Origin: Arthrobacter crystallopoietes | GTDB lineage: Bacteria > Actinomycetota > Actinomycetes > Actinomycetales > Micrococcaceae | Assembly: GCF_002849715.1 (NCBI RefSeq) | Contig: NZ_CP018863.1 | Location: 1 to 64,000 of the forward strand | Direction: 5' to 3' | DNA length: 64,000 nt | Part shown: in pieces, positions 801 through 22,349 of the stretch | How positions within the stretch are numbered: the first letter of the stretch is position 1 | Layout: every line of letters begins with the position of its first letter | The notes under the pieces: model-generated | Told to the model about the DNA's origin: nothing | The model's database searches: none | What the model saw: only the letters and a program-made list of their open reading frames with translations | Translations under genes and position numbers: made by a program

Positions 801-801
801 G

Positions 802-3125: not shown

Positions 3126-3129
3126 TCAT

Positions 3130-5427: not shown

Positions 5428-5491
5428 GTTCGAGGTCTTCTGCAGAAATTTTTTGCCGCGCCCTATTATTCCGGCGCCCCTTTGAGATAAA

Positions 5492-5508: not shown

Positions 5509-6418
5509 AAACTGGGGTCCATGCTGGCCGTCATCTTAATGAGCATGCTGACGGCCTGCGGTCCTGTGGGCAACGGTTCGGCTGCCGCCCCGAAGCCGTC
5601 CGACGAGCGCCCCATGGTGCTGACCACGTTCACGGTGCTTGCAGATCTGGTGCGTCAAGTGGCCGGTGAGCATGTGCGGGTGGAATCAATCACCAAGGTG
5701 GGCGCGGAGATCCACGGCTACCAGCCCACTCCTTCGGATCTGGTCGGCGCCCAGGATGCGGACCTGATTCTCGACAACGGGCTGGGCCTGGAGCGTTGGT
5801 TCGCCCGGTTTGTGACGGCGGTACCGGCCCCGCATGCAGTCCTGTCGGAAGGAATCGACCCCGTGGATATCCGCTCCGGGAACTACGAGGGCAAGCCCAA
5901 TCCGCATGCCTGGATGTCGCCGGAGGCCGCCAAGGTCTATGTCGACAACACCGTCGTCGCCCCTGAGCGAGCTGGATCCGGCGCATGCCGCGGACTTCCA
6001 TGCCAACGGCGAACACTACAAGGACCAACTGGACGGTGTCATGCAGGAACTGAAGGACGCCTTCCAGGACAGCGACGCCGTTGCCGCCCTGGTGACCTGC
6101 GAGGGCGCTTTCTCCTATCTAGCGAGGGACGCCGGTCTGAAGGAAGCTTTCCTGTGGCCGGTGAACTCCGACGCCGAAGGTACCCCCCGGCAGATCAAAG
6201 ACACCATCGCCTTTGTGCAGCAGAACCAGGTTCCGGCTGTGTTCTGCGAATCCACGGTAAATCCCGGCGCGATGGAACAGGTTGCCGCCGCGACCGGCGC
6301 CGAACTCGTCACCCCGCTCTACGTCGATTCGCTGTCCGGTCCCGACGGCCCGGTACCGAGCCATCTGGACCTTATCCGGCACGACATCGCCCTGATCAAA
6401 GAAGGACTCGCCTCATGA
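5499..6418 (+). pseudogene. Metal-binding lipoprotein of a Mn/Zn ABC transporter (ZnuA/TroA family), frameshifted
   Basis: This is the extracytoplasmic metal-binding component. Frame 1 from 5521 gives a lipoprotein signal with lipobox LTAC, then FTVLADLVRQVAGEHV, a metal-binding HGYQPTPSDL, DLILDNGLGLERW and PNPHAWMSP. At about 5961 the reading moves to frame 2 (LSELDPAHAADFHANGEHY, CEGAFSYLARDAGLKEAF, FCESTVNPGAMEQV), which fits one missing base. A second break probably lies at the start: ATG 5499 reads MPEK, and removing one A from the AAAAAA run near 5505-5510 would join it to GSMLAVILMSML. It overlaps the ATPase by ATGA at 6415-6418. All key motifs survive, so sequence error is plausible. 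Confidence 0.8.
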
Positions 6419-7195
6419 GTGTGCATGAACTTCCCACCGGCGCTGAGGCCATAACCGTGAGGTCGCTGCACGTGGCGTACAACGAGGTCATAGCCCTCGA
6501 CGGGCGTCACGCTGACCGTCCGGCCGCAGACTATTTGCGGGCTGATCGGCGTCAATGGGTCCGGCAAGTCCACGCTGTTCAAGTCCCTCATGGGCCTGGT
6601 CCAGCCGACCAACGGCAACGTACGGCTTTTCGGCGTCGAGCCCAAGGACGCACGGAAGCTCAACGTCGTCTCCTACGTTCCGCAGTCCGAGGATGTGGAC
6701 TGGACGTTTCCCGTGTCCGTCCGCGACGTCGTCATGATGGGCCGCTATGGCCGGCTGGGACCGGCCCGCCGCGCGCACCGTGCCGATCGGGAGGCCGTGG
6801 CGGCAGCACTGGAACGCGTGGGACTGTCGGAGCTCCAGCACCGGCAGATCGGCGAGCTCTCGGGTGGTCAGCGGAAGCGGGCCTTCGTGGCGCGGGGAAT
6901 CGCCCAAGATGCCGGGCTGCTGTTGCTCGATGAGCCGTTCGCCGGAGTGGACAAGGGCTCCGAGGGGGCCCTGATCAGCCTGTTCAAGGAACTGCGGAAC
7001 GAAGGCCGGACCGTGCTGGTCTCGACCCATGACCTGGCCGGCATCCCCCAGCTCTGCGACGAAGCCATCCTGCTCCACCAGCGGGTGCTTGCGCATGGCA
7101 AACCCGAAGCGGTCCTGACCAACGAGAACCTCGCACGGGCCTTCGGTACAGCCCTGGCCACCGCCCAGGAAGGAGCGCATCATGGACGTCATTAA
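6415..7195 (+). pseudogene. ATP-binding protein of the Mn/Zn ABC transporter, frameshifted near the N-terminus
   Basis: ATG 6415 starts in frame 1 (MSVHELPTGAEAITVRSLHV, AYNEVIALDG). From about 6502 the family sequence is in frame 2: VTLTVRPQTICGLIG, Walker A GVNGSGKST, YVPQSEDVDW, signature ELSGGQRKRAFVARG, Walker B LLLLDEPFAGVD and H-loop VSTHD. One extra base in GACGGGCGTCACG accounts for the break. Only about 30 codons precede it; without repair the Walker A region has no proper start. It is coupled to the binding protein by an ATGA overlap and overlaps the permease start by 14 bases. Confidence 0.8.
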
Positions 7196-8075
7196 TTGGG
7201 TGCTGGAGCCGCTGCAGTACGGCTTCTTGACCCGCGCGCTGCTGGTGACGCTGGCGGCGGCCGTGGTCTCAGCCGTACTGTCCTGCTGGCTGATCCTGAT
7301 GGGCTGGTCCCTCATGGGCGACGCGGTATCCCATGCAGTGCTGCCCGGCGTGGCGCTGGCGTACATTGTCGGCCTGCCGTTCTCGCTGGGCGCCTTCATC
7401 TTCGGTGCCGGTGCCGTAGCGCTGATCGGCGCCGTCCGGTCCACCACGAAACTCAAAGCTGACACGGCCATCGGCGTCGTTTTTACCGGCCTTTTTGCCC
7501 TCGGCCTGGCCATCATTTCCAAGACTCCGAGCCAAACGGATCTGCAACACATCCTGTTCGGCAACGTCCTCGGGGTAAATACCGCGGAACTGCTCCAGGT
7601 ACTTGTGCTGGGCGCGATCACACTGGCCGTGCTGCTCTACAAGCGGCGTGACCTGACGCTGCTGGCGTTCGACCGGATCCATGCCCACGCCATCGGGCTG
7701 AACACGCGCTGGCTTTCCGCCCTGATGCTGGGGCTGCTGGCCCTGACCGTTGTGGTGGGCCTGCAAGCGGTAGGCATTATCCTGATGGTGGCCATGCTGA
7801 TCACGCCCGGCGCCACGGCATTCCTGTTGACCCGCCGCTTCGACACCATGCTGCTGATCGCGGCGTCGATAACGGCATCGGCCGCGCTTGCCGGCATCTA
7901 CGCCAGCTACTACTTGGACATTTCCACCGGCGCCTCGGTGGTCCTGGCCCAGTCCGTGGTCTTCGTCGCCGTCTACCTGTTCTCCCGGCGCAACGGGGTA
8001 GTCTGGCAATGGCAGCGGCGGCGCAGCGCCAGGCGCCGGGTCTCCGAACAGCCGAGCATCCCCACGTCCGTCTAG
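7182..8075 (+). CDS. Permease of the Mn/Zn ABC transporter (ABC-3 family)
   Basis: A 297-aa membrane protein of the ZnuB/MntC type with about eight or nine hydrophobic segments. Recognisable family blocks are GWSLMGDAVSHAVLPGVALA near the N-terminus and LQAVGIILMVAMLITPGAT in the second half. It would form the metal channel with the ATPase and lipoprotein encoded upstream. ATG 7182 is preceded by AAGGAG. The frame is intact, unlike its two upstream partners. Manganese or iron rather than zinc is favoured because the next gene is a DtxR/MntR-type regulator. Confidence 0.88.
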   Translation: MDVINWVLEPLQYGFLTRALLVTLAAAVVSAVLSCWLILMGWSLMGDAVSHAVLPGVALAYIVGLPFSLGAFIFGAGAVALIGAVRSTTKLKADTAIGVVFTGLFALGLAIISKTPSQTDLQHILFGNVLGVNTAELLQVLVLGAITLAVLLYKRRDLTLLAFDRIHAHAIGLNTRWLSALMLGLLALTVVVGLQAVGIILMVAMLITPGATAFLLTRRFDTMLLIAASITASAALAGIYASYYLDISTGASVVLAQSVVFVAVYLFSRRNGVVWQWQRRRSARRRVSEQPSIPTSV

Positions 8076-8083
8076 AGAACAAG

Positions 8084-8815
8084 ATGCCTCCGAACAAGCA
8101 CAGTCCCGCCCTTAGCAGCGGCTCCGCCAGTGTCCAGGACTACGTCAAGGTGATCTACTCCTTCACCGAGTGGCAGGATGAGCCGATCAGCTCGTCCCAG
8201 CTGGCCAACAGGCTGGGCGTCGCCAACTCCTCCGTGTCTGAAATGGTGCGCAAGCTCGTCGAGCTTGGGCTCGCCATCCACGAACCGTACAGCGCCGTGG
8301 AGCTGAGTGACGAGGGCCGCCGGCTTGCTCTGGCCATGGTTCGCCGGCACCGGCTGCTGGAGACCTTCCTGGTCCAGGAACTCGACTATGCCTGGGACGA
8401 GGTCCACGACGAGGCCGAACTGCTCGAACACACCGTTTCGGACACTTTCATCGAACGGCTGTCCGCCAAGCTCGGCTATCCCGACCGGGACCCGCACGGC
8501 GATCCGATTCCGGATGCACACGGCGCCGTAAACATTCCGCAGGCACATCAACTCGCCAGCCTGGATGCGGGCCATACGGGCCGGATCACGCGCATCAGCG
8601 ACGCGAATCCCGAACTCCTGAGGTTCCTCAGCGCCGAGGACATCGGCTTGGATGACCACGTGGAGGTCATCGGCCACAAGCCTTTCGGCGGCCCCCTGGT
8701 AGTCCGCGTCGGTACCGCTGGGCGAAACCGGGAGCTGGATCTGGGTATTGAGGCGGCCTCGGCGCTGTGGGTCTTCAGTGACAAACCCCACGCTGGCTGC
8801 GCCCTCACCACATGA
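8084..8815 (+). CDS. mntR: DtxR/MntR-family metal-dependent transcriptional regulator
   Basis: 243 aa. The N-terminal winged helix (SSSQLANRLGVANSSVSEMV, about residues 35-55) is followed by a dimerisation/metal domain (RRHRLLETFLVQEL, HDEAELLEHTVSD) and a C-terminal FeoA/SH3-like domain. The first metal-site residue is Asp (VQDYVKVIY) where DtxR has Met. The DtxR metal Cys position appears to be acidic (EAELLEH). Both features favour manganese over iron. It starts 8 bases after the permease and its stop overlaps the next start (ATGA), so it probably controls its own transporter. Confidence 0.85.
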   Translation: MPPNKHSPALSSGSASVQDYVKVIYSFTEWQDEPISSSQLANRLGVANSSVSEMVRKLVELGLAIHEPYSAVELSDEGRRLALAMVRRHRLLETFLVQELDYAWDEVHDEAELLEHTVSDTFIERLSAKLGYPDRDPHGDPIPDAHGAVNIPQAHQLASLDAGHTGRITRISDANPELLRFLSAEDIGLDDHVEVIGHKPFGGPLVVRVGTAGRNRELDLGIEAASALWVFSDKPHAGCALTT

Positions 8816-9276
8816 GAACGACGCCGGCTGCGCACCTTGGGCGGCCGGAAAAACCTCCGCTGCCGCCCGCCACCGTCTGGACAGCTGTGGCCGTCGGCGG
8901 GCTGCTCGGCACCGAGGCGCGTTACGGCCTGGGGCTGCTCATTCCCGAAGCCACCGGCGTTCTTCCGTTGACCACGCTGGGGATCAATGTCGTAGGTAGC
9001 CTCCTGCTGGGGATAGTCACCGCCTTCTGGACGGAACGACCGGAGGCTCCGGCGTGGCTCCACGCCGGCCTTGGCCCCGGCCTCTTAGGTTCCTTCACGA
9101 CGTTTTCGGCCGTCACCATCGCCATCGAGCAGCTTGCCGCTGCCGGCCGCCATGAGGTTTGGCTCGCGTATCTGGTATTGTCCCTCGCCGCCGGGCTGGC
9201 CGCGGCCGTGGCCGGCTTGGTGCTCGGCCAAGTGCTCGTGAGGCGCACGGTCGGCTCAACGGCCGGACAGTCGTGA
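8812..9276 (+). CDS. crcB: Fluoride channel CrcB/Fluc, first subunit
   Basis: 154 aa, four hydrophobic segments. Fluc motifs are LLGTEARYGLG in the first segment, TLGINVVGSLLLG with the conserved Asn, and GLGPGLLGSFTTFS, which includes the pore-lining FTTF. CrcB exports fluoride passively as a dual-topology dimer; tandem unequal copies usually form a heterodimer. The N-terminus is about 20 residues longer than usual and Pro-rich. It is coupled to mntR and to the next crcB by 4-base overlaps. No fluoride riboswitch is visible upstream. Confidence 0.9.
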   Translation: MRTTPAAHLGRPEKPPLPPATVWTAVAVGGLLGTEARYGLGLLIPEATGVLPLTTLGINVVGSLLLGIVTAFWTERPEAPAWLHAGLGPGLLGSFTTFSAVTIAIEQLAAAGRHEVWLAYLVLSLAAGLAAAVAGLVLGQVLVRRTVGSTAGQS

Positions 9277-9659
9277 CCGCTCTGGCCGCGTTGCTGGTGG
9301 GTGTCTTCGGCATGGTAGGGGCGCTGGTGAGGTTCGCCGCGGATACCATGTTCAGCCGGGCCGGTGCCTCCAGGACCGCGCGCGCGGCCTGGCCCTGGTC
9401 AACCTTGCTGGTCAACGTAGCCGGCTCGTTCATCATCGGGCTGGGCTATTCATTGACCGTGCAGAGTTCGCTGACGGAGCCATGGAGTACGGCGCTGGCG
9501 ACGGGACTGGCTGGCGGCCTGACGACGTTCAGCTCCTGGACGGTTGCCACCGTCCGACTGTGGGCAGAACGGCGGCTTGTTGCCGCCGTCGTCAATCTTG
9601 CGGCCAATCTTGCGCTCGGCCTGGGAGCGGCAGCGCTGGGTCTGCTGCTGCTCGGATGA
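9273..9659 (+). CDS. crcB: Fluoride channel CrcB/Fluc, second subunit
   Basis: 128 aa, GTG start inside the stop of the first copy (GTGA). Four hydrophobic segments carry GMVGALVRF, LVNVAGSFIIG and GLAGGLTTFSSWT. It is more compact than the first copy and is the likely oppositely oriented partner in a Fluc heterodimer. Many Gram-positive bacteria carry such tandem pairs. Confidence 0.9.
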   Translation: MTALAALLVGVFGMVGALVRFAADTMFSRAGASRTARAAWPWSTLLVNVAGSFIIGLGYSLTVQSSLTEPWSTALATGLAGGLTTFSSWTVATVRLWAERRLVAAVVNLAANLALGLGAAALGLLLLG

Positions 9660-9733
9660 GAGCGCTGTCATCAGCACACTGATAATTTGGGTAAGCTCAA
9701 GTTTGTCCGCTTCAGGCTAGGGAAGGGCGCTTA

Positions 9734-10831
9734 ATGGCATCGCTGGGAATTGAGGAAGAGTACCTGCTGCTCAATCCGGCCACGGGATTGCCCGAGGCGG
9801 TCGCAGACAAGGTGGCCCAGAACCTGGAGTCCCTGCAGGTGGCCCGCGGGGATATCCAGCGGGAGCTGCTCAATTGCCAGATCGAAACCGCCACGGCCGT
9901 TTGCTCCACACTGACCGAGGCCGAGGAATCGTTGCTGAATTTCCGCCGCCAGCTGGACACCGCTGCACGGAAGGCGGGCGTCCGCGCGGCCGCGACCGGC
10001 ACGGCAGCACGGATCCACGAAGACTACCCGGAGGTGACGGACAAGCAGCGTTACCACGACTTAAAAGCCAGCGCCAAAGGGATTGTCGCCGACCAGTTCG
10101 TCAACGGCCAGCACGTACATGTTTCAGTCCCCGACAAGGAGTCGGGCGTGCAGGCCTTGAACCGGATCCGGCCCTGGTTGCCGGTCATCGTGGCGCTGAG
10201 CTCGAATTCGCCATTCTGGTTGGACCGCGACAGCGGGTTTGCCAGCTGGCGGATTGTGCACTACCGCCGTTGGCCAGTCCAAGGCTGTCCCCCGCTGTTC
10301 GCTGATGCTGCCGACTACGAGCGGCGGATCCAGCGGCTGGTGGACACCGGCGTTGTCATCGACCGGGGCGTCCTCACCTGGCTGGCGCGCCTGTCCGACC
10401 GCTACCCCACATTGGAAGTGCGCGCGGCCGATGTGCAGCTGGAAGCCCAGGACGCAGTCCTCATCGCCGCGCTGATCCGCGGACTGGTCGTCACAGCCCT
10501 CGCCGAAGCGGAGGCCGGCAAAGAGTTTCCCGACCTCGACGCCGAACTCCTCGATGCGGCAGTCTGGCAAGCCGGACGGCAAGGGCTGGCCGATAAGCTG
10601 ATCGACCCGTTCTCCGGACTCCTCCTGCCCGCCCGCGATGTGGTCAACTTGCTGGTTCGCCGCATCCGGCCAGCCCTTGAGGAAGCCGGCGACGCTGAGT
10701 GGGTAGACGCTTCCCTGGAACGCTTATGGACCGACGGCATCGGAGCGGAACGGCAACGGCGCGTCATGGCAGCTGGCGGAATGCCGGCGCTAATGGATCT
10801 CTACGCTGGCTCGCTGACCGCCGAGCCCTGA
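9734..10831 (+). CDS. Carboxylate-amine ligase, YbdK / glutamate-cysteine ligase 2 family
   Basis: 365 aa. The family signature SLGIEEEYLLLNP opens the protein. Later blocks include NCQIETATAVCSTL, GQHVHVSVPD, LSSNSPFW and SWRIVHYRRWP, matching the GCS2/YbdK fold with its acidic and His metal and ATP ligands. These enzymes show weak glutamate-cysteine ligase activity; the physiological product is often uncertain in actinobacteria. ATG 9734 has GGAAGGG at about 9720-9727. It stands alone and converges with the regulator on the other strand. Confidence 0.85.
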   Translation: MASLGIEEEYLLLNPATGLPEAVADKVAQNLESLQVARGDIQRELLNCQIETATAVCSTLTEAEESLLNFRRQLDTAARKAGVRAAATGTAARIHEDYPEVTDKQRYHDLKASAKGIVADQFVNGQHVHVSVPDKESGVQALNRIRPWLPVIVALSSNSPFWLDRDSGFASWRIVHYRRWPVQGCPPLFADAADYERRIQRLVDTGVVIDRGVLTWLARLSDRYPTLEVRAADVQLEAQDAVLIAALIRGLVVTALAEAEAGKEFPDLDAELLDAAVWQAGRQGLADKLIDPFSGLLLPARDVVNLLVRRIRPALEEAGDAEWVDASLERLWTDGIGAERQRRVMAAGGMPALMDLYAGSLTAEP

Positions 10832-10841
10832 GCGTCACGGG

Positions 10842-11591
10842 CTATCCGCGGCCTCCGCTCCGCCCCAGTTGCTGCTCGCCATCCGACCCTTCCAGGAGCG
10901 AACTGATCAAGTCCGAAATGATTGGCGAGGGGGCAACACCGAATTCCTGGCGCAGCCTGATCCGGAAGGACTGGTAAGCCCGCAGCGCTTCCGCATTGTT
11001 TCCCTCCGCCAGGTAGCACTGGAGCAGTAACCGTTGTGCACTCTCGCGTAGAGGCTCTATGGTCGTCGCAGCGCGCGCAGCTTCCATCGCCGGATCGATC
11101 CTTCCCAGCAGCAGAAACTGCTTGGCCAGCCGCTCAAGCACCGACAGGCGCAGGCGCTGCCACCTCTCCTGTTCGGAGATAACCCAGTCTTCGTACCAGC
11201 CCGGCAACAATTCGGCGTCCTGCACCGCCTCCAGCAGGCTCTGCTGGAGGCCGGGATTGGCATGTTCCTCCAGCCGGGCTGCCTGCACCTTGATCTCGCG
11301 GACATCAACGCTGACGTGCTCGTCCAAGTCCACCGGATCCTGCGTCGATGACAGGAGCTGAGGCAACGTCCGATTAACCAGGAAGACACTCTCCCGAAGA
11401 CTGCCCGCCGCCTGATGCTCCGAGCTGTCCGGCCACAGCAATCCGGCCAAAAAAGTTCGGGACTGCCTGCCATACAGAGCCAAGGCCGCAATAAGGCGTT
11501 GCTGGCGCAAAGCAACTTTCACAGGGTTACCCCCGCGATGCAGTTGCCAGCCCCCCACAAGTTGTAAATCCCAAGGTCGATCGGTAGCCAT
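10842..11591 (-). CDS. SARP-like transcriptional regulator (winged helix plus BTAD)
   Basis: About 249 aa from the preferred ATG at 11591 (an upstream start at 11723 is open but adds non-conserved residues). The N-terminal half resembles the OmpR-like winged helix of AfsR/SARP activators (LRQQRLIAALALYG, LAGLLWPDSSEHQAAGSLRE). The C-terminal half is a bacterial transcriptional activation domain with TPR-like helices (LLPGWYEDWVISEQERW, IEPLRESAQRLLLQCYLAEG, ALRAYQSFRIRLRQEFGV, PSPIISDLISSLL). No sensor or NB-ARC domain is attached. Targets are unknown; it diverges from the small gene at 11872. Confidence 0.75.
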   Translation of the reverse strand: MATDRPWDLQLVGGWQLHRGGNPVKVALRQQRLIAALALYGRQSRTFLAGLLWPDSSEHQAAGSLRESVFLVNRTLPQLLSSTQDPVDLDEHVSVDVREIKVQAARLEEHANPGLQQSLLEAVQDAELLPGWYEDWVISEQERWQRLRLSVLERLAKQFLLLGRIDPAMEAARAATTIEPLRESAQRLLLQCYLAEGNNAEALRAYQSFRIRLRQEFGVAPSPIISDLISSLLEGSDGEQQLGRSGGRG

Positions 11592-11871
11592 AGCCGCAGT
11601 GATCCCCACAGTAACTCCCCACAGAGCCAGCCGGACTCTCCGGCCCCGGCTCCCCTCGCGGGCCCCACCGCTTGGAATCTTCAGGATCGCTAATGCGCGC
11701 GGCAGTGTCAATGAATCGAGCAAACGGTCTCAGGAAAGCTCAAGGTCCAGGAGAAAGCTAAGACCCAGGGGATGGTCGTGGCTGCTGGCGCATCGGGCCC
11801 TACTGGGACGCCAGCAGAATTCTTCCAGTTTGTTCCGACTCCGCGCTGGTCGCGATGTTGGCCTATTGTTG

Positions 11872-12249
11872 ATGACGATGATTACCAGACGAGATGCAGC
11901 CCTAGCCCTTGACATTCCGCTCGAGATGGCCCGACGGCACGGCATACCTTCGCGGCTCTGCGAGGAGGACCTCGCCGAGATTGTAGCTAATCCGCCGCAG
12001 TGGCTCCTGCAGTCCCGAGCCAACCGCACAGGCAAGAGGCCGGTCTGGGTTGAATTGCGGTGTTATGTCTGCGGCTTTTCCGAGACAGCCCGGCCAAAGA
12101 AGTGGTGGCCTCAGTTCACTTATGTCATCTGCGAATTCCACGATCCACAAGAGCTGCCCGAACCCGGGGTCGGCATGCGCCGGAGCGAATTCGATGGTGT
12201 GGGCAGCCGCTTCATCGGCATAGTCGAGGATCCTGTAGAAGGTTCCTGA
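11872..12249 (+). CDS. Unknown small protein with zinc-ribbon-like cysteines
   Basis: 125 aa, ATG 11872 (or 11878). The N-terminus ITRRDAALALDIPLEMARRH looks like a helix-turn-helix-like segment. The middle has CYVCGFSETARPKKWW followed by YVICEFHDP, a C-x2-C plus C-x2-H arrangement that could hold zinc. The function is not known to me. A terminator shared with ssrA follows. The 280 bases between it and the SARP-like gene hold no other gene and must contain both promoters. Confidence 0.6.
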   Translation: MTMITRRDAALALDIPLEMARRHGIPSRLCEEDLAEIVANPPQWLLQSRANRTGKRPVWVELRCYVCGFSETARPKKWWPQFTYVICEFHDPQELPEPGVGMRRSEFDGVGSRFIGIVEDPVEGS

Positions 12250-12283
12250 CGCTGTCCCGCAGCCGTCAGCATGCTTAAGCGAC

Positions 12284-12318
12284 AAACAGGCCGGAAGCGT
12301 TATGCCTCCGGCCTGTTT
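12284..12318. terminator. Bidirectional terminator between the small gene and ssrA
   Basis: A perfect 12-bp stem, AAACAGGCCGGA paired with TCCGGCCTGTTT, gives a T-run on either strand (GTTTG on +, GTTTGTCG on -). It can end the gene at 11872 and the tmRNA arriving from the other strand. Confidence 0.85.
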
Positions 12319-12322
12319 GCGT

Positions 12323-12691
12323 TGGTGGAGATGGGGGGAATTGAACCCCCGTCCGATGTTGCGTTGCCAGGACTTCTCCGGGCGCAGTTTGCTTCGGGAT
12401 TTCTCGGCCCCAGCCATCATGCAAACAAGTGGCTGACCCGGGCCCAGCCGTCTAAAAGTCCCGGACACCCCAACGGCGAAAGTGTCCAGCAGTGGCCCTC
12501 TAAATGACGCCAGAAACCGGGGCGAGAGCGTACCCGGACTGACGGACTATGCCCGCTGCTTAGGCAGCGAGAGCGAAGTCGTGCTGTTTGGATTCAGCAG
12601 TTATTTTTTGCAGAGAGCGTTAACGAGATAGCCCTGCATCCTCGGCCCGCTTCCCCTGGCGCGACTAACATCGTCGAAACCTGTCATCCCC
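12323..12691 (-). ncRNA. ssrA: Transfer-messenger RNA
   Basis: On the minus strand it begins GGGGATGACAGGTTTCGACG and ends with the T-arm GGGGGTTCAATTCCCCC, then CATCTCCACCA. The ends pair as a 7-bp acceptor stem with one G-U pair, and the CCA is encoded. The tag reading frame is at 12598-12560: GCT GAA TCC ... GCT GCC TAA, encoding AESKQHDFALAA followed by stop, with the usual ALAA degradation tail. tmRNA rescues stalled ribosomes together with SmpB, whose gene lies about 315 bases upstream on the same strand. Confidence 0.96.
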
Positions 12692-13005
12692 ATATTGAGT
12701 TACCAAACCGGTGGTTCACACCGGACTATCTATTGTAACCACAACTTCTGCGAATGTATTCCCAGAGTCCCCTGATGTTTTATAGCCCTCGGGCACGGGC
12801 AGATTTACGCTCTATTTAGGCTGGCCGGCGAAACTGCGGACACCGCGCCGAGGCCGGGAGCTTCTCATGCTGGCCAAAGGCTGGTCGGCCAGGCTCGGCG
12901 GGGAAGGTAGCGCTGTGTAGCTCCAAGGCTGGCTATGCGGCGTTCCAGCGACGTCTGGGGCGAGTTGCTGAAGCGTCAGTCACCGAGATTCCCGATGAGC
13001 ACTGA
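12692..13005 (-). promoter_or_regulatory. Intergenic stretch between smpB and ssrA, with a weak ssrA promoter candidate
   Basis: No convincing gene is seen here. On the minus strand TACAAT (12737-12732) with a poor -35 about 17 bases upstream could start a precursor roughly 35 bases longer than mature tmRNA, trimmed by RNase P. The rest of the stretch shows no clear structure. The promoter call is weak. Confidence 0.3.
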
Positions 13006-13482
13006 TCAGGCAGAGCCGCGGTTGCGCTCACGCATGGCACGTAGCGCTTCACGCTTGTCCTGCTGTTCACGCAACGTCTGACGCTTGTCGTAGTCCTTCT
13101 TGCCGCGGGCAATTGCGATTTCGACCTTCGCCCGGCCGTCGTTGAAGTAAAGCTGAAGCGGAACAATCGTGAAGCCGGATTCGCGGATCTTGTGTGAGAT
13201 CTTGTTCAGCTCTTCGCGGTGCAGCAAGAGTTTCCGGCGCCGCCGGGCGGAGTGATTTGTCCAACTGCCGTTGAGATACTCCGGGATATAGACGGCTTCC
13301 AGATACAGCTCATCGTTGTAGAAAACGCAGAAACCGTCCACTAGGGACGCCCTGCCCTCGCGCAGCGATTTGACCTCGGTTCCCATGAGCGCCATGCCAG
13401 CCTCAAAGGTATCCATAATGTGGTAGTCATGCCGGGCCTTGCGATTGGTGGCCACTACCTTCCGGCCACTTTCCCTGGGCAC
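13006..13482 (-). CDS. smpB: SsrA-binding protein SmpB
   Basis: 158 aa, full length. Family blocks are KVVATNRKARHDYHI, GTEVKSLREGRASLVD and LLLHREELNKI, plus the basic C-terminal tail GKKDYDKRQTLREQQDKR, which becomes helical in the decoding site. SmpB carries tmRNA to stalled ribosomes. It is the last protein gene of the ftsE-ftsX-hydrolase-smpB run and lies just upstream of ssrA. Confidence 0.96.
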   Translation of the reverse strand: MPRESGRKVVATNRKARHDYHIMDTFEAGMALMGTEVKSLREGRASLVDGFCVFYNDELYLEAVYIPEYLNGSWTNHSARRRRKLLLHREELNKISHKIRESGFTIVPLQLYFNDGRAKVEIAIARGKKDYDKRQTLREQQDKREALRAMRERNRGSA

Positions 13483-13559
13483 GGGGCGACTCCTTCTGGT
13501 TCAAATCCTCTTAGGTGAAAACATCCAGTATACCGGCGCGGAACAAGTCTCCCCGCTGG

Positions 13560-15035
13560 CTACAGCAGGCCCATAGGGTTGACCAGCGAGCCGTTCAGGA
13601 TAGTTTCAAAGTGCAGATGGCATCCGGTCGAGTTGCCGGTTGTTCCAACGTAACCGATAACATCCCCTTGGCTGACCCTCTGGCCAACGGACACGGCGGA
13701 CCGCGTCAGGTGGAAGTAGTTCGTGGCCAAGGCACTGCCGGACACCACGCCGTGGCTGATCACTACCATGTTTCCGGCGGCACCGCCCCACCCGGACGTC
13801 CAAACTTCGCCACTGGCAGGCGCGCGCACCGGCGTGCCGCAGGCTGACCCATAGTCCAGTCCGGTGTGCATGTAACCGCCGGAACCGCCAAAATCGATTG
13901 TGCCGGCGGGGGTTGCCCTCCACCCGTATCCGGAGGTCACCGGGCCGGACACCGGAGAGGCCAGACCGAACGAGGACGACTCACTCGGCGCGGCGGGCGG
14001 TGGTTCGACCGTGGGAACAATCTGCGGGACCGGCTGGTTGGCTGCCGCGGCAGCCGCCTTGGCGGCCTTGATCCGCGCCTGTTCCTTCTCCCAGGCAGCT
14101 TGGGCCGCCTTGCGCTCGGCCTCTTCCTTCTTGCGGCGTTCTTCGGCTTCGCGCCGCAGCCTTTCCTGCCGTTCGGCGATATCGGCCTGCACCTGCTGGT
14201 GCTGTTTCTCGACCTCAGCCAGCTGCTGCTGGATCTTCGGTTTCTGGGCCTGCAGTTTATCCGAAAGGGCGGAGGTATCCGCGATCAGCGTGTCCACCTT
14301 CTCCTTCTCGGCTGCGGCCTCATCCCGGGCAGTCTGCTCGGCAGCCAATGCCTCTTCGGCCTGCCGCTTGAGGTCCCGGATTTCTTCCTCGACCGCCTCG
14401 AGCCGGGCCTTCGAGTTCACGTTCGTAGCGTTCTGTTGGGAAAGCTTGTTCAAGGCGGCGTTCTGGCTGCGCAAGGCCTGGTCTGCCAAGCCGATGGTGT
14501 CGGCCAGGCCAGAGTCACCCTCCGAGCCAAAGAACAGCGTCAGGTTAGACGGGACGCCGCCTTGCTTGTAGGCCTGGGTGGCGATCTGCCCTATGATCTC
14601 CCGGGTTTCAGCGAGCTCTTCCTTGTCATCATCGAGCTGCTGATTGATGTTGTCCTTGGTCTGCAACGCCATGTCAACGCGCTGCGCCAGAGCCGCGACC
14701 TTGTTCGCCGCTTCCTCGACCCGTCCCTGCGCCTCTGCCAGTTTCTGCTGGGCCGCGGGCAACTGGCTCTGGTACTCCTTAAGCTGCTTTACCGTCTCTA
14801 TGATGTCGGCGTCCAGGAATTCCAGTGAATGCTCAACTTCGGCCATTTCCTGCTCGAGCGCTTCTTTGCGATCGTCCAGCTGATCCGCCTGTACGGGACC
14901 TGCGGTACCGAGGGAAAACGCCAGGAAGGCGGCCAGCGCGGCGCTGATAATCCCCTGCGGCAGACACGACTTCCTACCCGCGTGTAAACGGTTCACTGTC
15001 CGGTTCCCCAACCTGTTGTTCTGCTCAGTAGACAT
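13560..15035 (-). CDS. Secreted M23 (LytM) murein hydrolase with coiled coil, FtsEX partner
   Basis: 491 aa. The N-terminal signal peptide (GIISAALAAFLAFSLGTAG, cleavage near VQA-DQ) precedes a long coiled coil (about residues 52-330, heptad-rich Glu/Lys/Ala), a short Pro-rich linker and a C-terminal LytM domain. The zinc and catalytic motifs are intact: HTGLDYG (H-x3-D) and CHLHFET (HxH). It follows ftsX by 4 bases. By analogy with EnvC and PcsB it is the peptidoglycan hydrolase or activator driven by FtsEX during division. Confidence 0.88.
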   Translation of the reverse strand: MSTEQNNRLGNRTVNRLHAGRKSCLPQGIISAALAAFLAFSLGTAGPVQADQLDDRKEALEQEMAEVEHSLEFLDADIIETVKQLKEYQSQLPAAQQKLAEAQGRVEEAANKVAALAQRVDMALQTKDNINQQLDDDKEELAETREIIGQIATQAYKQGGVPSNLTLFFGSEGDSGLADTIGLADQALRSQNAALNKLSQQNATNVNSKARLEAVEEEIRDLKRQAEEALAAEQTARDEAAAEKEKVDTLIADTSALSDKLQAQKPKIQQQLAEVEKQHQQVQADIAERQERLRREAEERRKKEEAERKAAQAAWEKEQARIKAAKAAAAAANQPVPQIVPTVEPPPAAPSESSSFGLASPVSGPVTSGYGWRATPAGTIDFGGSGGYMHTGLDYGSACGTPVRAPASGEVWTSGWGGAAGNMVVISHGVVSGSALATNYFHLTRSAVSVGQRVSQGDVIGYVGTTGNSTGCHLHFETILNGSLVNPMGLL

Positions 15036-15039
15036 GATT

Positions 15040-15954
15040 CTAGACCTTCAAATAGCGTCGGAGGGTAAGAAGAGAGGAAATTCCTGCCAGCACGGTACCG
15101 AGCAGGATCAGCGCAGGTGCGATCAGGAGCACCGATCCCTCCGATATGAAGGCCGTATCCGGATATTGCTGTGCCAGCCAGTCGCCGATAAAGAACCGCG
15201 CCACTGCCCACAACGTGACCGAAGCCAACAGCGCGCCGATGACAGCGGCAATGACGCCTTCCAGCACAAACGGCAACTGGATCACCGCCTTCGAAGCTCC
15301 TACCAGACGCATGATGCCCGTCTCACGACGTCGGCTGAAGGCCGAGAGACGGATGGTCGTCGCGATCAGCAGGATCGCGCACACAATCATGATGGCGGCG
15401 ATACTGACCGCCACGAGGGAGGCTATGTTCATCACGCTGAAGACCCGCTCCAGGATCTCCCGCTGGTCCACAACAACTTCGACGCCGGGCAACGAGGAGA
15501 AGATCTCGTTGATAACCTCGTACTTTTCCGGGTCCACGAGGCTGACACGGAAGGACTCCGGCAGCTGATCCGCCGTTACGGAATCCACAATCGGCGAGTT
15601 AGCGAACTGGTCGCGGAAGTGTCCCAACGCGTCCTCTTGCGACTCGTATAGGTAGGTGTCCACGTACTGCGCGACAGCAGGCGACTCAAGCGTGTTTTTG
15701 ATTTCCGCCCGCTGTTCGTCGGTTACTGGCCCGGAGGCACAGCTTGCCGCCGTCGACGTATCGACGCAGAGGAAGACGGCGACCTGGACCTTGTCGTACC
15801 AGTAGCCCTTCATCTGGTTGATCTGCAACTGGAGCATACCGGCAGCCCCGACGAACGTCAGCGAGATGAACGTGACCAGGATGACGGAGACGACCATGGA
15901 AAGATTGCGGCGCAATCCGGAACCGATTTCACCAAGAATGAATGCGAGCCTCAT
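15040..15954 (-). CDS. ftsX: Cell division protein FtsX
   Basis: 304 aa with four membrane segments: one near residues 20-45 and three in the C-terminal 130 residues. A large extracellular domain with two cysteines ([15 protein letters not shown]) lies between the first and second segments. FtsX links the FtsE ATPase to external hydrolases. The C-terminal FtsX domain blocks ([35 protein letters not shown]) are clear. It overlaps ftsE by 4 bases. Confidence 0.95.
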
Positions 15955-16652
15955 TTGTTATCACCCTGGGCGCCAACGTAGATGCCTTCGGCCTCATCGC
16001 GGACCAGTACGCCGTCGACCAGTTCGATCACTCGCTTGCGCATGTCGTTCACGATCACATTGTCATGCGTCGCCATGACGACGGTGGTGCCGTTTTGATT
16101 GATCCGGTCCAGGACCTTCATGATGCCCATCGAGGTGGTGGGATCAAGGTTTCCGGTCGGCTCGTCGGCCAGCAGGATACCGGGCTTATTCACGATGGCC
16201 CGGGCGATAGCCACTCGTTGCTGTTCGCCGCCGGAGAGCTCATGAGGCATGCGGTGGTCCTTGCCTTCCAGGCCGACCGTCTTGAGTACTTCGGGAACCG
16301 TCTCGCGGATCATCGCCCGGCTCTTGCCGATTACCTGCATGGCGAAGGCCACGTTGCCGGCAACGGTTTTATTCGGCAGCAGCCGGAAATCCTGGAAGAC
16401 AACGCCGATACCGCGACGCAGCTTGGGCACCCGCCAGCTTGGAATGTTGGCGACGTTCTGGCCGGCCACGTAAACGGAGCCACGGGTAGCCCGGTCCTCC
16501 TTGAGGACCAGCCGGATGAAGGTGGACTTCCCTGATCCCGAAGCTCCAACCAGGAACGCGAAATCCCCGCGGTCCACTTCAAGGCTGACCTTGTCCAGAG
16601 CGGGTCGCGTGTTCTGGTCGTAAATCTTAGTGACGTTGTCGAATCTAATCAT
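15951..16652 (-). CDS. ftsE: Cell division ATP-binding protein FtsE
   Basis: 233 aa ABC ATPase with Walker [10 protein letters not shown] (about residues 36-44), FtsE-type [14 protein letters not shown], signature [15 protein letters not shown], Walker [13 protein letters not shown] and switch ATHD. It pairs with FtsX at the septum. It is the first gene of the ftsE-ftsX-hydrolase-smpB operon. Confidence 0.96.
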
Positions 16653-17011
16653 GACTACTTCGTGCCCAAATACAGCTGCCGACGGCTCGGGCCTATGGTT
16701 GAAGGAAAAATCATCGGCGTACTGACTATATGCAGTACGCCTTGGAATTTACCTGCAGGCCCCTAGCGGGCGTGTCGTTCAGGCAAGGCCCGTGGCAGGA
16801 AGCCGTGGTCGGCAATGCACCCATCTGCGTGGCATTCTTCCTCGTGACAGCAGGCACGGAATCAACGCCGGCGGCAACGGCGCAGGCGTTCGCTTGCCTC
16901 ACAATTGTATAGTGATTCATCTCACCCCGCGTCCCTGGCATCGGCCAGAAACGCCGGTTGAGCCCAGCGTGCGACTGGATTCCTGGCCGGCTCCGCCGGC
17001 CCAGCAGGGCC
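16653..17011 (-). promoter_or_regulatory. Intergenic stretch between prfB and ftsE with a candidate ftsE promoter
   Basis: No gene is supported here. On the minus strand TATACAAT (16911-16904) is a good -10 candidate and would give a leader of about 245 bases before ftsE; no clear -35 is seen. The same place reads TCAC-N9-GTGA on the plus strand, a small inverted repeat. A separate hairpin is at 16716-16741. Confidence 0.3.
16716..16741 (-). terminator. Hairpin with T-run, possible prfB terminator or ftsE leader structure
   Basis: A perfect 9-bp inverted repeat GGCGTACTG / CAGTACGCC has an 8-base loop. On the minus strand it is followed six bases later by TTTTT. It lies about 270 bases past the prfB stop and about 65 bases before ftsE, so if the promoter at 16904 is real it would act as an attenuator. 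Confidence 0.45.
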
Positions 17012-18127
17012 CTATTCCGCGGAGTTGCGGGTGTTCGCACGCCAGCGGATACCGGCGTCGATAAAATCATCGATCTCCCCGTCGAATACGGCAGACGTAT
17101 TACCGACCTCGTGTTCGGTACGCAGGTCTTTGACCATCTGGTAAGGATTCAGTACGTAGGAACGCATCTGGTCACCCCAGGATGCCTTGACATCCCCGGC
17201 GAGGGCTTTCTTCTCCGCGTTTTCCTGCTCTTTTTTCAGCAGCAGCAGCCGGGATTGCAACACGCGAAGCGCGGCGGCGCGGTTCTGAATCTGCGATTTC
17301 TCGTTCTGCATCGAAACCACGATGCCGGTGGGAAGGTGCGTCAGCCGCACGGCTGAGTCCGTGGTGTTCACCGACTGTCCTCCCGGTCCGGAAGAACGGA
17401 AAACGTCGACCTTGATCTCGTTGTCCGGAATATCAATGGAATCCGTCTGCTCGATCAGCGGGATCACCTCCACCGCGGCAAAGGACGTCTGGCGCCGGCC
17501 TTGGTTATCGAAAGGACTGATCCGTACCAGGCGATGGGTACCGGCCTCGACCGATAACGTACCGAAGGCGTAAGGTGCCTTGACTTCGAAGGTCGCCGAT
17601 TTCAGCCCTGCTTCTTCGGCATAGGACGTGTCCAGTACTGTCGTGGGGTACCCGTGGCGCTCCGCCCAGCGCAGGTACAGACGCATGAGCATTTCCGCGA
17701 AATCGGCTGCGTCAACGCCGCCGGCGCCAGCGCGGATCGTGACAACAGCTTCCCGCTCGTCGTACTCGCCCGAGAGCAAGGTGACGACTTCGAGCTGGGC
17801 GAGCGCTTTCTTCAATGCCGCCAGCTCGCTGGCTGCCTCCGCCATCGAGTCGGCGTCATCCTCACCCTGGCCCAGCTCAACGAGCACCTCCAGATCGTCG
17901 ATCCGCGCCTCAAGTTTTTCCAGCCGTTCAAGATCGGACTGGCGGTGCGAGAGCTTTGACGTGATCTGCTGTGCTGCGGCGGGATCGTCCCAGAGATCGG
18001 GCACGCCGGCCTGCTCGCTCAGCTCTGCGATGTCCTTGCGGATGGTTTCGACATCGGTCACTGCCTCGATGGAGTCATAGGTGGCGCGCAGGGCGCGGAT
18101 TTCTGCGGGAAAGTCGATCTCAGCCAT
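17012..18127 (-). CDS. prfB: Peptide chain release factor 2
   Basis: 371 aa. RF2 recognition motif SPF ([19 protein letters not shown]) and catalytic GGQ ([17 protein letters not shown]) are both present, followed by the RF conserved [14 protein letters not shown]. It terminates at UAA and UGA codons. The reading frame is continuous from ATG 18127: the programmed +1 frameshift of many RF2 genes is absent, as usual in actinobacteria. It stands directly upstream of ftsE, a conserved order. Confidence 0.96.
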
Positions 18128-18207
18128 GGTTCTCCAAGCCTACGCCATGCCGGGAACGCCGATGCGCTGCCCGCGGCTTGGCATCCATCTAGCGCTGGCA
18201 CCTTCTA

Positions 18208-18453
18208 TCAGCGCCGCAGCTCCGAACGGGCATCGCTGGACACGGTGATCGGCACACCAGCCGGAACCAGGAAGTTCACGATGGGAGGATGCACCACGGC
18301 GGAGAGGACAACGTGGGCTGTGCGGCTTTCCGGCGAACCGGTGCCGGGGCTGATGGACAGGCCTTCGAACCGGCCCGCTGCGCCGGTATCCGCAAGATGG
18401 CGTTGAACGGCGCTGCGGACGGTACCGTCGCTCAAGGTTGGAACGGGCGCACC
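18208..18453 (-). pseudogene. C-terminal fragment of the second TadE-like gene
   Basis: The minus frame reads GAPVPTLSDGTVRSAVQRHL, RFEGLSISPGTGS, HVVLSAVVHPPIVNF, LVPAGVPITVSSDARSELRR and stop. This matches the expected C-terminal half of a TadE-like pseudopilin (hydrophobic strand, FLVP, VSSDA). The open frame continues upstream only as antisense of tadE. The matching N-terminal half lies on the plus strand at 18852-19049. It was left behind by the inversion of the segment to its right. Confidence 0.65.
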
Positions 18454-19043
18454 GTTTGATATGCGCCGCTTGATAACGCTGCTGCGCGCTCCGGCCGGTC
18501 TTCGCTCCGAGCGTGGCTCAGCGGCTGTGGATTTCGTGCTGGTCGGCGGCGTCCTGACGCTGATCTTCGTTTCGATCATGCAGTTGGCCCTTGTTCTGCA
18601 TGTGCGGAACACCTTGATCGATGCCGCCGGTTCCGGGGCCCGCTACGGTGCCTTGGCAGATCGCGGGCCGGAAGACGCCCGGGGCCGCACGGTATCCCTG
18701 ATCACCGGCTCCCTGAACGCTGCCTATGCCACGGACGTACACGTGGAGGAGATCCAACGCGGGGGAATCAGGACACTTCGGGTGACGGTAAACGCTCCGT
18801 TGCCAGCGGTCGGACTGGTGGGTCCTGCAGGCGGATTGGAGGTGGAGGGCCATGCGGCACTGTCCCGATAGCAAATACCGCCCGTCAAGGTGGCCCGACA
18901 AACTTCGCCGGCGTCTGACAGCGGCGGCAGGTCCTGACGATCCTGCGGAGCGGGGCAGTGCTGTTGTGGAGTTCGTCTTCCTTGGCGCGCTGCTGCTCGT
19001 ACCGGTGGTCTACTTCGTCATCGCAGTGGCTCAGGTTCAGGCT
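18454..19043. other. Inverted segment inside the tad locus (inferred)
   Basis: All other tad genes run on the minus strand; this piece of about 590 bases, carrying tadE and half of a second TadE-like gene, runs on the plus strand. Turning it back restores the usual order pilin-tadE-tadE2 on one strand. With breaks at about 18453 and 19043 the two halves of the second gene join in frame. No long inverted repeats are visible at the ends, only about one to two matching bases. Exact ends are uncertain by several bases. Confidence 0.65.
18461..18871 (+). CDS. tadE: TadE-like pilus assembly protein
   Basis: 136 aa. After a basic N-terminus (MRRLITLLRAPAG) comes the pseudopilin motif ERGSAAVDF and a hydrophobic helix (LVGGVLTLIFVSIMQLALVL), then HVRNTLIDAAGSGARYGAL and a C-terminal beta-rich part ending in GHAALSR. 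This matches actinobacterial TadE proteins, which follow the pilin-like gene in Tad/Flp operons. Here it points away from tadABC because of the inversion, so it has lost its normal promoter connection. The gene itself is intact. Confidence 0.75.
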   Translation: MRRLITLLRAPAGLRSERGSAAVDFVLVGGVLTLIFVSIMQLALVLHVRNTLIDAAGSGARYGALADRGPEDARGRTVSLITGSLNAAYATDVHVEEIQRGGIRTLRVTVNAPLPAVGLVGPAGGLEVEGHAALSR

Positions 19044-19049
19044 GGCTGA
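18852..19049 (+). pseudogene. N-terminal fragment of the second TadE-like gene
   Basis: 65 codons: a basic stretch, then ERGSAVVEF and the hydrophobic helix VFLGALLLVPVVYFVIAVAQ, then VQAG and a stop. TadE-like proteins of this type continue for about 80-100 more residues. The missing part is on the minus strand at 18453-18208. The stop TGA at 19047-19049 lies in the flank at the inversion junction. The start overlaps the end of tadE by 20 bases. Confidence 0.7.
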
Positions 19050-19272
19050 CGCGTCCCATGGCATCGTTGAAAAGTCCTTCGAGCGCGGGCTTGGCAATGG
19101 CGAGGATCCCGGCCACCAGCACCGCGGACATTAGGGTGATCATGACCCACCCGGGCACATCGCCACGCTCGGGGTCCTCGCCGGACACAACCGTCCGGAA
19201 CCGACCGGCGAGCTGTGCCAGCATTATCGACAGCAGTACAGCTGCTTTCAGAGTGAAGGAATACTTGTTCAT
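19018..19272 (-). CDS. Small pilin-like membrane protein of the Tad locus, C-terminus altered
   Basis: 84 aa with one strong hydrophobic helix after PERGDVPGW (VMITLMSAVLVAGILAIAKP), the arrangement of small Flp/DUF4244-like pilins that follow tadC in actinobacteria. Residues up to about GRVS look native. The last eight (QPEPEPLR) are encoded antisense to the TadE-like fragment, so they are probably a by-product of the inversion junction at about 19043. It is the likely major or minor pilin of this apparatus; I cannot tell which. Confidence 0.65.
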   Translation of the reverse strand: MNKYSFTLKAAVLLSIMLAQLAGRFRTVVSGEDPERGDVPGWVMITLMSAVLVAGILAIAKPALEGLFNDAMGRVSQPEPEPLR

Positions 19273-19324
19273 TTTCCGCCTTCTTTACCTTTGATCCGTT
19301 GTTGGAATTCTCATTGCGGCACCT

Positions 19325-20266
19325 TCACCAGCGCAGATTGATCAGGGCCAGTCCCGGATATACAGCGAACAACACGGTGAGGGGCAAAACACCGAACACG
19401 AGCGGAACCATCATGGCAATTTCCTTTTTGCCTGCCGATTCCATGAGGCTGCGTTTGGCCATATCCCTGACGTCCTGTGCCTGTGCCCGAAGCACATCCG
19501 CCAGCGGCGTACCCCTTTCGACTGCCACAGTGATGCCGTCGACGAACCTCACCAAGGCCTGCAGCCTGCTCCGGCGCGAAAAGTCCTGTAGCGCCGCCAG
19601 CAGTGGAGTCCCCGATCGGGTATCTGTCAGGACGGTAGCGAATTCATCGGCAAGTTCGCCGTGAGCGCTGCGGCAGATTCGTTCCAGCGCACCGGTGGTG
19701 CTCTCCCCCGCGCTGACGGCGAGCGCCATCAGTTCCGCCAAACTGGGAAATTCGGCCAGCATCTTGGTTTCCCGGCGCTGTATCTGCACAGTCAGCATGT
19801 AGTCGCGCAGCAAGAATCCGCCCGCAGCGAGGCCGATTGTGAGAATGATGCCCGTTATGGGGTCAAGCCCTCCCCCTGCCGCGGATACCAGAGCCAGCAG
19901 AATTCCGACGGCAAGTCCCAGGACCGCCCACAGCAGTTGTTCCGCCCTGAAATCGACGGCGGTCTGGCGGCGGCCGGCCTGGGCCAGGCGCTTGGACAAC
20001 ACCGTCGTTCCCAAGTTGAATCTGCCCAGCCAGGAAACGGCGTCGAGAAGGACCGGACGGATAATGCGTTCCAAGGGGCCGAACGGAGTCACGTTGACAG
20101 GTCCCGCAGCCAGCAGCCTGGACTGGACGTCGACCGATTTCAGCTGAGGTGCGATCCTGTCGACGAACCGCGTCCTGCGCATAGAGGGCAGTCGCACCAG
20201 GACCAGCCACAACCCGGCGCCCAGCCCTGTCCCTGCGAGGACGCCCATGGTCATCAACTGCGTCAT
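19325..20266 (-). CDS. tadC: Tad pilus inner-membrane platform protein TadC
   Basis: 313 aa, T2SSF-domain protein. Hydrophobic segments lie at the N-terminus, in the middle (LLWAVLGLAVGILLALV, IILTIGLAAGGFLL) and at the C-terminus (MMVPLVFGVLPLTVLFAVYP). The cytoplasmic T2SSF core contains EFPSLAELMALAVSAGES, ALERICR and TPLADVLRAQAQDVRD. It forms the assembly platform with TadB and is coupled to tadB by a 4-base overlap. Confidence 0.9.
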   Translation of the reverse strand: MTQLMTMGVLAGTGLGAGLWLVLVRLPSMRRTRFVDRIAPQLKSVDVQSRLLAAGPVNVTPFGPLERIIRPVLLDAVSWLGRFNLGTTVLSKRLAQAGRRQTAVDFRAEQLLWAVLGLAVGILLALVSAAGGGLDPITGIILTIGLAAGGFLLRDYMLTVQIQRRETKMLAEFPSLAELMALAVSAGESTTGALERICRSAHGELADEFATVLTDTRSGTPLLAALQDFSRRSRLQALVRFVDGITVAVERGTPLADVLRAQAQDVRDMAKRSLMESAGKKEIAMMVPLVFGVLPLTVLFAVYPGLALINLRW

Positions 20267-21126
20267 TGCATCACCCGTTCGTCTTCAGGTAAGGCACCGA
20301 TGCGGAGCATGAGACGGTAACAGACCAGAGACACGACCAGACCGCCGAGCAGTACCATGGCCCCGGCCGTCGAGTTATAGGCGGCGACGGCCTCGGGCCG
20401 CGTAGCCAGCAGCATCAAGATGATCCATGGTGCGGCGACCGCAAGCCTCGCGGCGCTGACTGTCCACGATTGGCGGGCCTCCAGTTCGCTCCTGGTGCGC
20501 GCACTGTCGCGAAGAAAATCCGCCAAGGTACCCAGCAGCCTGCCCAAGTCGGAACCGCCTACCTCCCTCGTCATTCTGAGCGCTTCGATGATCCGGTCCG
20601 CTACGGGATCCGCCAGCCGGTCCTTCAGCCGTTCCAACGACTGGTCGAAGCGCCCACCGGCACGGTAATCAGCCCCAAAATCGACGAATGCCGGACGCAG
20701 CTCCACCGGCCCCCGGATTCCCAGCTGCACCAAGGCCTCCGGCAATGAGAGGCCAGCACGAATGGCGGAACGAAGGTGATCGACTACATCCGGCCAAATT
20801 TCACGCATCGCCGCCACGCGGCGCCTTGCGCGCCACCGCACCAGCACCAACGGCAGCCATCCGCCAAAGAGCGCGAAACAGCCGGCGATCGGTGGCGATT
20901 GCGTAATCACCAGGATCAGTAAAAAGGTAAAGACGGCTGTTCCGGCACAACTGGCGATGAGGCCGTTGACAGAAACTTTCTCAATTCCCGATTGATTGAT
21001 GATCTCCTGCAAGCGAGTGAACCGTGGGTTGCGGGGGCTCTTGGGAGGCGGCTCCGGCAACTCCCAGCAGGACCACCAGATTAGGAACAGTCCGAACCCG
21101 CCCACAAGGCCAGCGGCAGCAGTCAT
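20263..21126 (-). CDS. tadB: Tad pilus inner-membrane platform protein TadB
   Basis: 287 aa, T2SSF-domain protein with an N-terminal hydrophobic segment, a central helix (CAGTAVFTFLLILVITQSPP) and C-terminal segments (AAPWIILMLLATRP, GAMVLLGGLVVSLVCY). The T2SSF core is visible in HLRSAIRAGLSLPEALVQLG and MTREVGGSDLGRLLGTLADF. It overlaps tadA and tadC by 4 bases on either side, a tightly coupled operon. Confidence 0.9.
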   Translation of the reverse strand: MTAAAGLVGGFGLFLIWWSCWELPEPPPKSPRNPRFTRLQEIINQSGIEKVSVNGLIASCAGTAVFTFLLILVITQSPPIAGCFALFGGWLPLVLVRWRARRRVAAMREIWPDVVDHLRSAIRAGLSLPEALVQLGIRGPVELRPAFVDFGADYRAGGRFDQSLERLKDRLADPVADRIIEALRMTREVGGSDLGRLLGTLADFLRDSARTRSELEARQSWTVSAARLAVAAPWIILMLLATRPEAVAAYNSTAGAMVLLGGLVVSLVCYRLMLRIGALPEDERVMQ

Positions 21127-22349
21127 GACATGCCGCCGAGCAACTGCATGACGTTGTACCCGGCACGGGCAAATTTCTCGTCTCCCGGACTGGCCGAACT
21201 GCTGGCCAGCAGATCTCCGTTCTGCCGGCTGAAAAGAGTTGATGTCTCGATAATGCCGTTTTCAACTCGGCGTCCTAGCGAGACTATTTCGGCAACCTGC
21301 CGCAGACCGGAGGCGCTGCGCGTACAGTGCACGACCAGATCAATACAGGAAGCCACCGTCGGCAGGACGAAGGCACTGGAGATATTCTCGCCAGCCAGCA
21401 GGGGCAGCGTGCACACCTTCGTGATGGCATCATGGGCACTGTTCGCGTGGATGGTGCACATCCCTGGCAGGCCGCTATTGAGGGCAATGAGCATGTCCAG
21501 GCTTTCGGCTTCGCGGACTTCGCCGACGATCAGGCGGTCCGGCCGCATGCGCAGGGCTTCCTTGACCAGGCGCCGCAGGGGGATTTCGCCCTCGCCCTCC
21601 AGATTCGGCTGGCGACACTGCAGGCCCACCACGTCGCGTAAGGGCAGTTGAAGCTCGAAAATTTCCTCGACCGTCACCACGCGCTCGCGGCTGCCGATGC
21701 TCGCCGCAAGGCAATTAAGCATCGTCGTCTTACCCGCTTGCGTTGCTCCGGAGACCAGGATGTTCAGCCCGCTGGCTACCGCGGCGGAAAGGAACCGCGC
21801 GGCCTCGGGCGAAAGCGAGCCCAGTTCCACCAAATGGTCCAGTTTCGATGCACGGGCAATGAACTTACGGATGTTGACGGCCCAGTGCCGCCTGGTGATA
21901 TCAGGAATGACCACGTGCAGACGGGAGCCATCGGGCAAGGCCGCATCGACGAAAGGTGAGGACAGGTCCAACCGACGGCCCGAGGACTTGAGCATCCTTT
22001 CCACCAGGTCCCGTACCTGCTGCTGGCTCAGCGTGACCGAAGTAAGCTCGGATTCTCCGCCGCGTGCAACATATACCTCGGCCGGGGAATTGATCCAGAT
22101 TTCCTCAACCGAGGGATCATCAAGTAACGGCTGCAGTGCGCCGAATCCTGCGACCGCATCGAACACGTACTTCCTGGCAAAGTCAAGGTGCCCCAGCGGA
22201 GGCAGCGTCCCCAGCAGGGACCGCTCGTCATAATCATTGACGGCGGCCTCCACCAGTCGGCGAACTTCCCCGCCCTGGTGCGCCGGGTCGATGCCCCTGC
22301 GGCGGATGAGCTCGCGCACCTCATCTTCGACAATGCGGACAGCATCCAT
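21123..22349 (-). CDS. tadA: Tad pilus secretion ATPase TadA/CpaF
   Basis: 408 aa. Hexameric type II/IV secretion ATPase. It has the N-terminal domain with LLDDPSVEEIWINSP, Walker A GATQAGKTT (about residues 199-207), Asp box VTVEEIFEL, Walker B RPDRLIVGEV and His box GMCTIHANSAHDA. The start is ATG 22349; a much longer open frame upstream is antisense to the exporter gene and was not used. The Walker A is slightly unusual (GATQAGKT rather than GGTGAGKT) but keeps the Lys. No cpaE or ssd is adjacent; a CpaE-like gene lies at 48.1 kb. Confidence 0.92.
   Translation of the reverse strand: MDAVRIVEDEVRELIRRRGIDPAHQGGEVRRLVEAAVNDYDERSLLGTLPPLGHLDFARKYVFDAVAGFGALQPLLDDPSVEEIWINSPAEVYVARGGESELTSVTLSQQQVRDLVERMLKSSGRRLDLSSPFVDAALPDGSRLHVVIPDITRRHWAVNIRKFIARASKLDHLVELGSLSPEAARFLSAAVASGLNILVSGATQAGKTTMLNCLAASIGSRERVVTVEEIFELQLPLRDVVGLQCRQPNLEGEGEIPLRRLVKEALRMRPDRLIVGEVREAESLDMLIALNSGLPGMCTIHANSAHDAITKVCTLPLLAGENISSAFVLPTVASCIDLVVHCTRSASGLRQVAEIVSLGRRVENGIIETSTLFSRQNGDLLASSSASPGDEKFARAGYNVMQLLGGMS

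Follow-up and report, generated by a model that had tools for sequence, protein, structure and literature searches.

A reversed tadE block at a Tad pilus locus in the Arthrobacter crystallopoietes assembly: recent inversion with deletion or assembly error

In three relatives of Arthrobacter crystallopoietes (G007, G003, and G004), the genes of a Tad/Flp pilus locus lie on one strand in the order tadC, a pilin-like gene, tadE, a second TadE-like gene (tadE2), and a TadG-like gene with a PF13400 domain, followed by prfB. This arrangement was compared across 88 related loci drawn from eight of nine same-genus relatives (G001 was left out) and 80 of 195 named loci; about 85 of them are distinct because three pairs come from the same genome. 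All six genes were found in the same order and on the same strand at 81 loci. At the remaining seven, one or two genes had no match in the stretch compared, and the order and strand were kept. At most of the 88 loci, prfB is the immediate neighbour of the tad set.

The locus described here belongs to A. crystallopoietes DSM 20117 (NZ_CP018863.1), whose genome is given as 5.03270 Mb with two plasmids in a table of PMC8171050. The source genome (G000) consists of 5,032,705 bases in three contigs (C1-C3). The window, the whole stretch of DNA that was analysed, is the first 64 kb of C1. The nearest named relatives at the locus are Arthrobacter sp. VKM Ac-2550 and SF27, and the DNA of G007 is ~93% identical to that of the source genome. 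The features of the window are as follows; the inverted block and both junctions were placed by comparison with G007, G003, and G004.

1..19415, no strand: part of the contig repeated at its other end, an untrimmed circular overlap matching C1:4742670-4762081
17012..18127, minus strand: open reading frame which we take to be prfB, the next gene, in its normal place
18208..18454, minus strand: last 81 codons (3' end) of a TadG-like gene that lacks its N-terminal half, including the PF13400 domain
18455..18455, no strand: left junction, with an additional T and no bases in common; at this point, ~560 bp present in the ancestral order has been lost
18456..19041, no strand: inverted block holding tadE and the 5' part of tadE2
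18461..18871, plus strand: tadE, an intact frame of 136 amino acids, opposite in strand to the other operon genes, named from PF07811 (E 3.8e-10, over the cut-off) and from the order in relatives
18852..19049, plus strand: N-terminal 65 codons of tadE2, cut off at the right junction; 59 of 63 residues match P0003
19018..19272, minus strand: pilin-like gene, an open reading frame of 84 codons
19039..19041, no strand: right junction, with AGG common to both partners
19325..20266, minus strand: tadC (T2SSF), PF00482 over the cut-off
20263..21126, minus strand: tadB (T2SSF), PF00482 over the cut-off
21321..22145, minus strand: tadA ATPase domain (T2SSE), PF00437 over the cut-off

Two records met in the comparison carry questionable names. 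A contig labelled Vibrio cholerae strain 35D (L060, WNZI01000073.1) has an Arthrobacter-like tadE (68% identity) in the Arthrobacter gene order, and that record is probably mislabelled or contaminated. Separately, G005 (C247, 25,388 bases; L038) is only 68-80% identical to the window. Proteins from this 25,388-base contig bear the labels Arthrobacter or Crystallibacter crystallopoietes (one BAB-32), and the strain behind it looks, by this level of identity, like another species.

Reversed and missing DNA at the locus

The ATPase and the two T2SSF membrane proteins of the pilus locus are present in the window (PF00437 at 21321-22145; PF00482 in both T2SSF genes). The TadE-like and TadG-like minor pilins are not all intact: tadE is whole but reversed, tadE2 is down to 65 codons, and PF13400 has no match at the locus. 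The reading frame at 19018-19272 gave no Pfam match over the cut-off and is called pilin-like from its place and size. It has gained six codons over its G007 counterpart, as the original stop was on the far side of the break. A sequence-only reading of this DNA had placed tadE and the 65-codon N-terminus of a TadE-like gene on the strand opposite to the T2SSF and pilin-like genes, and the open reading frames together with PF07811 bear this out. The breaks that it proposed, 18454 and 19043, agree to within ~5 nt with the alignment to G007.

In that alignment, window positions 18456-19047 match G007 in reverse over 592 bp (90.5% identity, no gaps), and positions 12980-18454 and 19039-64000 match it in the forward direction. 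Across 464 kb of C1 and the matching part of G007, the flipped tad block is the sole segment to align in reverse over 100 bp or more at 75% identity or higher; there are 26 forward stretches over 1 kb, some of them paralogous. The tadE gene was reversed at none of the 88 related loci tested. Among the loci compared, the flip is found in the window alone, and none of the relatives has the split arrangement that the sequence-only reading had considered.

The flip is accompanied by a loss of DNA. Between the two left-hand pieces, G007 has 558 further bases (L033 1568-2125), a figure set by the alignment; assigning the final six aligned bases to the pilin side would raise it to as much as 564. In G007, this stretch covers roughly 100 codons at the end of tadE2 and 88 at the start of tadG. 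When the G007 region was searched against the whole source assembly, its other parts were found and the 558-bp stretch was absent.

The 81 codons on the minus strand (18453-18208) had been taken for the C-terminus of tadE2. Instead, they match the C-terminus of the TadG-like (PF13400) gene that precedes prfB, with 73-77 of 81 residues in common with the seven best TadG-like relatives. PF13400 matches the locus in G007, G003, and G004 (the full protein in G007), and there is no match at the locus in G000. The best full-length relative of the 65-codon piece is P0003, the closest intact form among the 120 of 184 matches that were listed, where clusters at 90% identity may hide a closer one. In G007, the counterparts of the 65-codon and 81-codon pieces are two genes in different frames. 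A single TadE-like gene split over both strands is thereby ruled out, as the 81-codon piece is the tadG C-terminus; two genes have been truncated. The in-frame join of the two supposed halves is without meaning because the pieces come from two genes, in different frames and ~560 bp apart. Likewise, turning the block back does not restore an order of pilin, tadE, and tadE2, since both truncated genes would stay truncated and ~560 bp would still be gone. What stands of the earlier proposal is an inversion relative to other genomes, which the reversed alignment to G007 confirms; a reversible flip is not supported, given the lost DNA. As read from these alignments, the change is an inversion with deletion that truncates both tadE2 and tadG.

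Junctions and the proposed pilus switch

The ancestral boundary between the pilin-like gene and tadE was used at both ends of the flipped block. The junctions are near-blunt, with 3 nt (AGG) shared on the right and one extra T on the left. The genome carries one Ku gene, which makes end joining plausible. In the junction flanks, the longest exact inverted match is 7 nt, a length that 350 of 500 random pairs match or exceed, and the best ungapped inverted score was matched or exceeded by 227 of 300 random pairs. A separate inverted-repeat scan gave no convincing pair. The remark in the sequence-only reading that long inverted repeats are absent from the flanks is therefore upheld, and a switch working through inverted repeats is ruled out. 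The resolvase and tyrosine recombinase families PF00239 and PF00589 have nine and seven matches in the genome, respectively, and none in the window.

These results bear directly on the suggestion that the block is a reversible phase-variation switch turning the Tad pilus on and off. Such a switch would fit a two-sided flip with one start at a gene boundary, and the nearness of the contig end to a two-orientation site could reflect mixed cells. However, the inverted matches at the flanks are no better than those of random pairs, the window lacks a match to either recombinase family, none of the 88 related loci is inverted, and a flip back restores nothing because ~560 bp are lost. Both assembled copies of the block, in the window and at the contig's tail, have the same orientation. 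A phase-variation switch is very unlikely. There is a related possibility that the culture mixes complete colinear cells with flipped, shortened ones made repeatedly, which would amount to irreversibly switching off one Tad pilus among several, the mixture breaking the assembly nearby; this, too, is very unlikely.

The pieces themselves show no sign of decay, which speaks against an old decaying pseudogene. For tadE, dN/dS was 0.07-0.11 between the window and relatives and 0.08-0.10 among relatives. The tadG piece gave 0.08-0.15 and 0.09-0.11 in the same two comparisons. For the short tadE2 piece, it was 0.18-0.46 between the window and relatives and 0.34 among relatives, with 1.17 for one very close pair that differs by 4 changes. 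A promoter scan of 18000-19500 found no plus-strand site ahead of tadE and a single weak minus-strand site, inside the pilin-like gene, a result that is not decisive.

A one-off event or an error at the contig ends

Did the flip take place in the cell or in the assembly? The evidence is conflicting, and the inversion is either a recent one-off event or an assembly error at about even odds. That the sequenced strain truly underwent a single inversion with deletion is given a probability of about 0.5. Under this model, the DNA would have broken at the boundary between the pilin-like gene and tadE, within tadE2, and within tadG; the fragment carrying tadE and the first part of tadE2 would have rejoined backwards, and the ~560 bp between tadE2 and tadG would have been lost. 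We infer that the cause was either end joining of double-strand breaks or template switching during replication, and that the effect was the loss of the Tad locus in the window. The alternative is an artefact of the assembly or the library, in which a chimeric long read from the tip of a linear contig was used at both ends and its false inversion and deletion survived polishing. The chance of such an artefact is substantial and falls a little short of even.

Both models turn on the ends of C1. This contig is 4,762,081 bases long, and its last 19.4 kb repeats window positions 1-19415; the two copies differ by 17 one-base indels and by no substitution. Untrimmed circular overlaps are a typical leftover of long-read assemblies. 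A second tad copy by gene duplication is ruled out, as the repeat extends to the very end of the contig and represents the circular overlap. One side effect is that genes in the untrimmed 19.4-kb overlap are counted twice in the record. Measured against G007, the start copy is the worse of the two at seven of seven differences between 170 and 6502; between 14318 and 18639, the tail copy is worse at ten of ten. In other words, the one-base indel errors of each copy cluster towards its own tip, so the flip sits in the good part of the start copy. C3 likewise has an untrimmed overlap of 17.9 kb (C3:1-17935 and 226832-244759) with 15 one-base indels near the tips, no substitutions, and no inversion; a plasmid search with its first 6 kb gave no match. 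C2 (25,865 bases; L130, L188) consists of about four head-to-tail copies of a 6.5-kb unit, ~99% alike, and is probably a small plasmid assembled as a multimer.

The two copies favour the view that the reads truly had the flipped order. Both carry the flip, and the window copy of the block is free of indels against G007, while the tail copy has lost one base inside the block (18639). In the window copy, the flip sits ~18 kb in from the start of the contig; this copy is poor at 170-6502 alone and correct at all ten of its differences from the tail copy beyond 14 kb, a pattern that counts against an artefact. The same is true of the C3 overlap, which came through without an inversion. A real event is further consistent with the flip being the sole reversed segment in 464 kb and with junctions that resemble end joining in a genome with Ku. 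On the other hand, the right junction lies 374 bp short of where the overlap stops, in a region prone to assembly errors; by chance, a site would come within 374 bp of an overlap boundary ~3 times in 10,000 (an estimate from 4 x 374 bp over 4.74 Mb). The ends of the assembly are neither trimmed nor polished, and it includes the multimeric C2. One faulty read at both contig ends would account for the flip in both copies and, if polished on the inner side only, for the error pattern as well. The broken genes without decay and the absence of the flip from all 88 related loci tested also point towards an artefact. So does a protein database search in which, among the matches listed, the truncated tadE2 protein came from a single contig of 4,762,081 bases and no second assembly with the flip was found.

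Other Tad sets and comparison with known systems

In a second tad set of the source genome, TadE and TadG domains lie at C1:293 kb, the ATPase gene at 297 kb, and a pair of T2SSF genes at 298-300 kb. A third Tad-like set with TadE, one T2SSF gene, and an ATPase (T2SSE) is located at G000:C1:550121-553232. Matches to TadE and T2SSF occur at three places in G007, G003, and G004, and matches to PF13400 at two; the TadE and T2SSF matches of the third set are also seen in these genomes. If the flip is real, the Tad locus in the window is probably dead because it has lost parts of tadE2 and tadG and its tadE no longer lies on the operon strand. The other tad-like sets may keep a Tad pilus available. 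One Tad pilus locus would then have been lost by a single breakage, and adhesion work on the sequenced strain would be unrepresentative of its relatives. If the flip is an artefact, the record needs correction for its untrimmed ends, multimeric small contig, and false inversion. In either case, the evidence gives no support to a pilus switch.

The locus resembles invertons in that a short DNA block is reversed at a surface-structure locus. It differs from them in having no inverted repeats, no nearby recombinase match, DNA loss, and no second state seen. It also resembles inversions with flanking deletion made by end joining or template switching, which share a short reversed block, loss of adjoining DNA, and near-blunt junctions with 0-3 shared bases. 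No feature was found that sets the window event, known here from the assembly record alone, apart from this class; microinversions or template switching are the subject of papers on apes and Drosophila. Compared with the Tad/Flp loci of Arthrobacter relatives (G007, G003, G004, and the named loci), the window shares tadA, tadB, tadC, the pilin-like gene, tadE, and prfB next door, and it differs in that tadE and the start of tadE2 are reversed and tadE2 and tadG are truncated.
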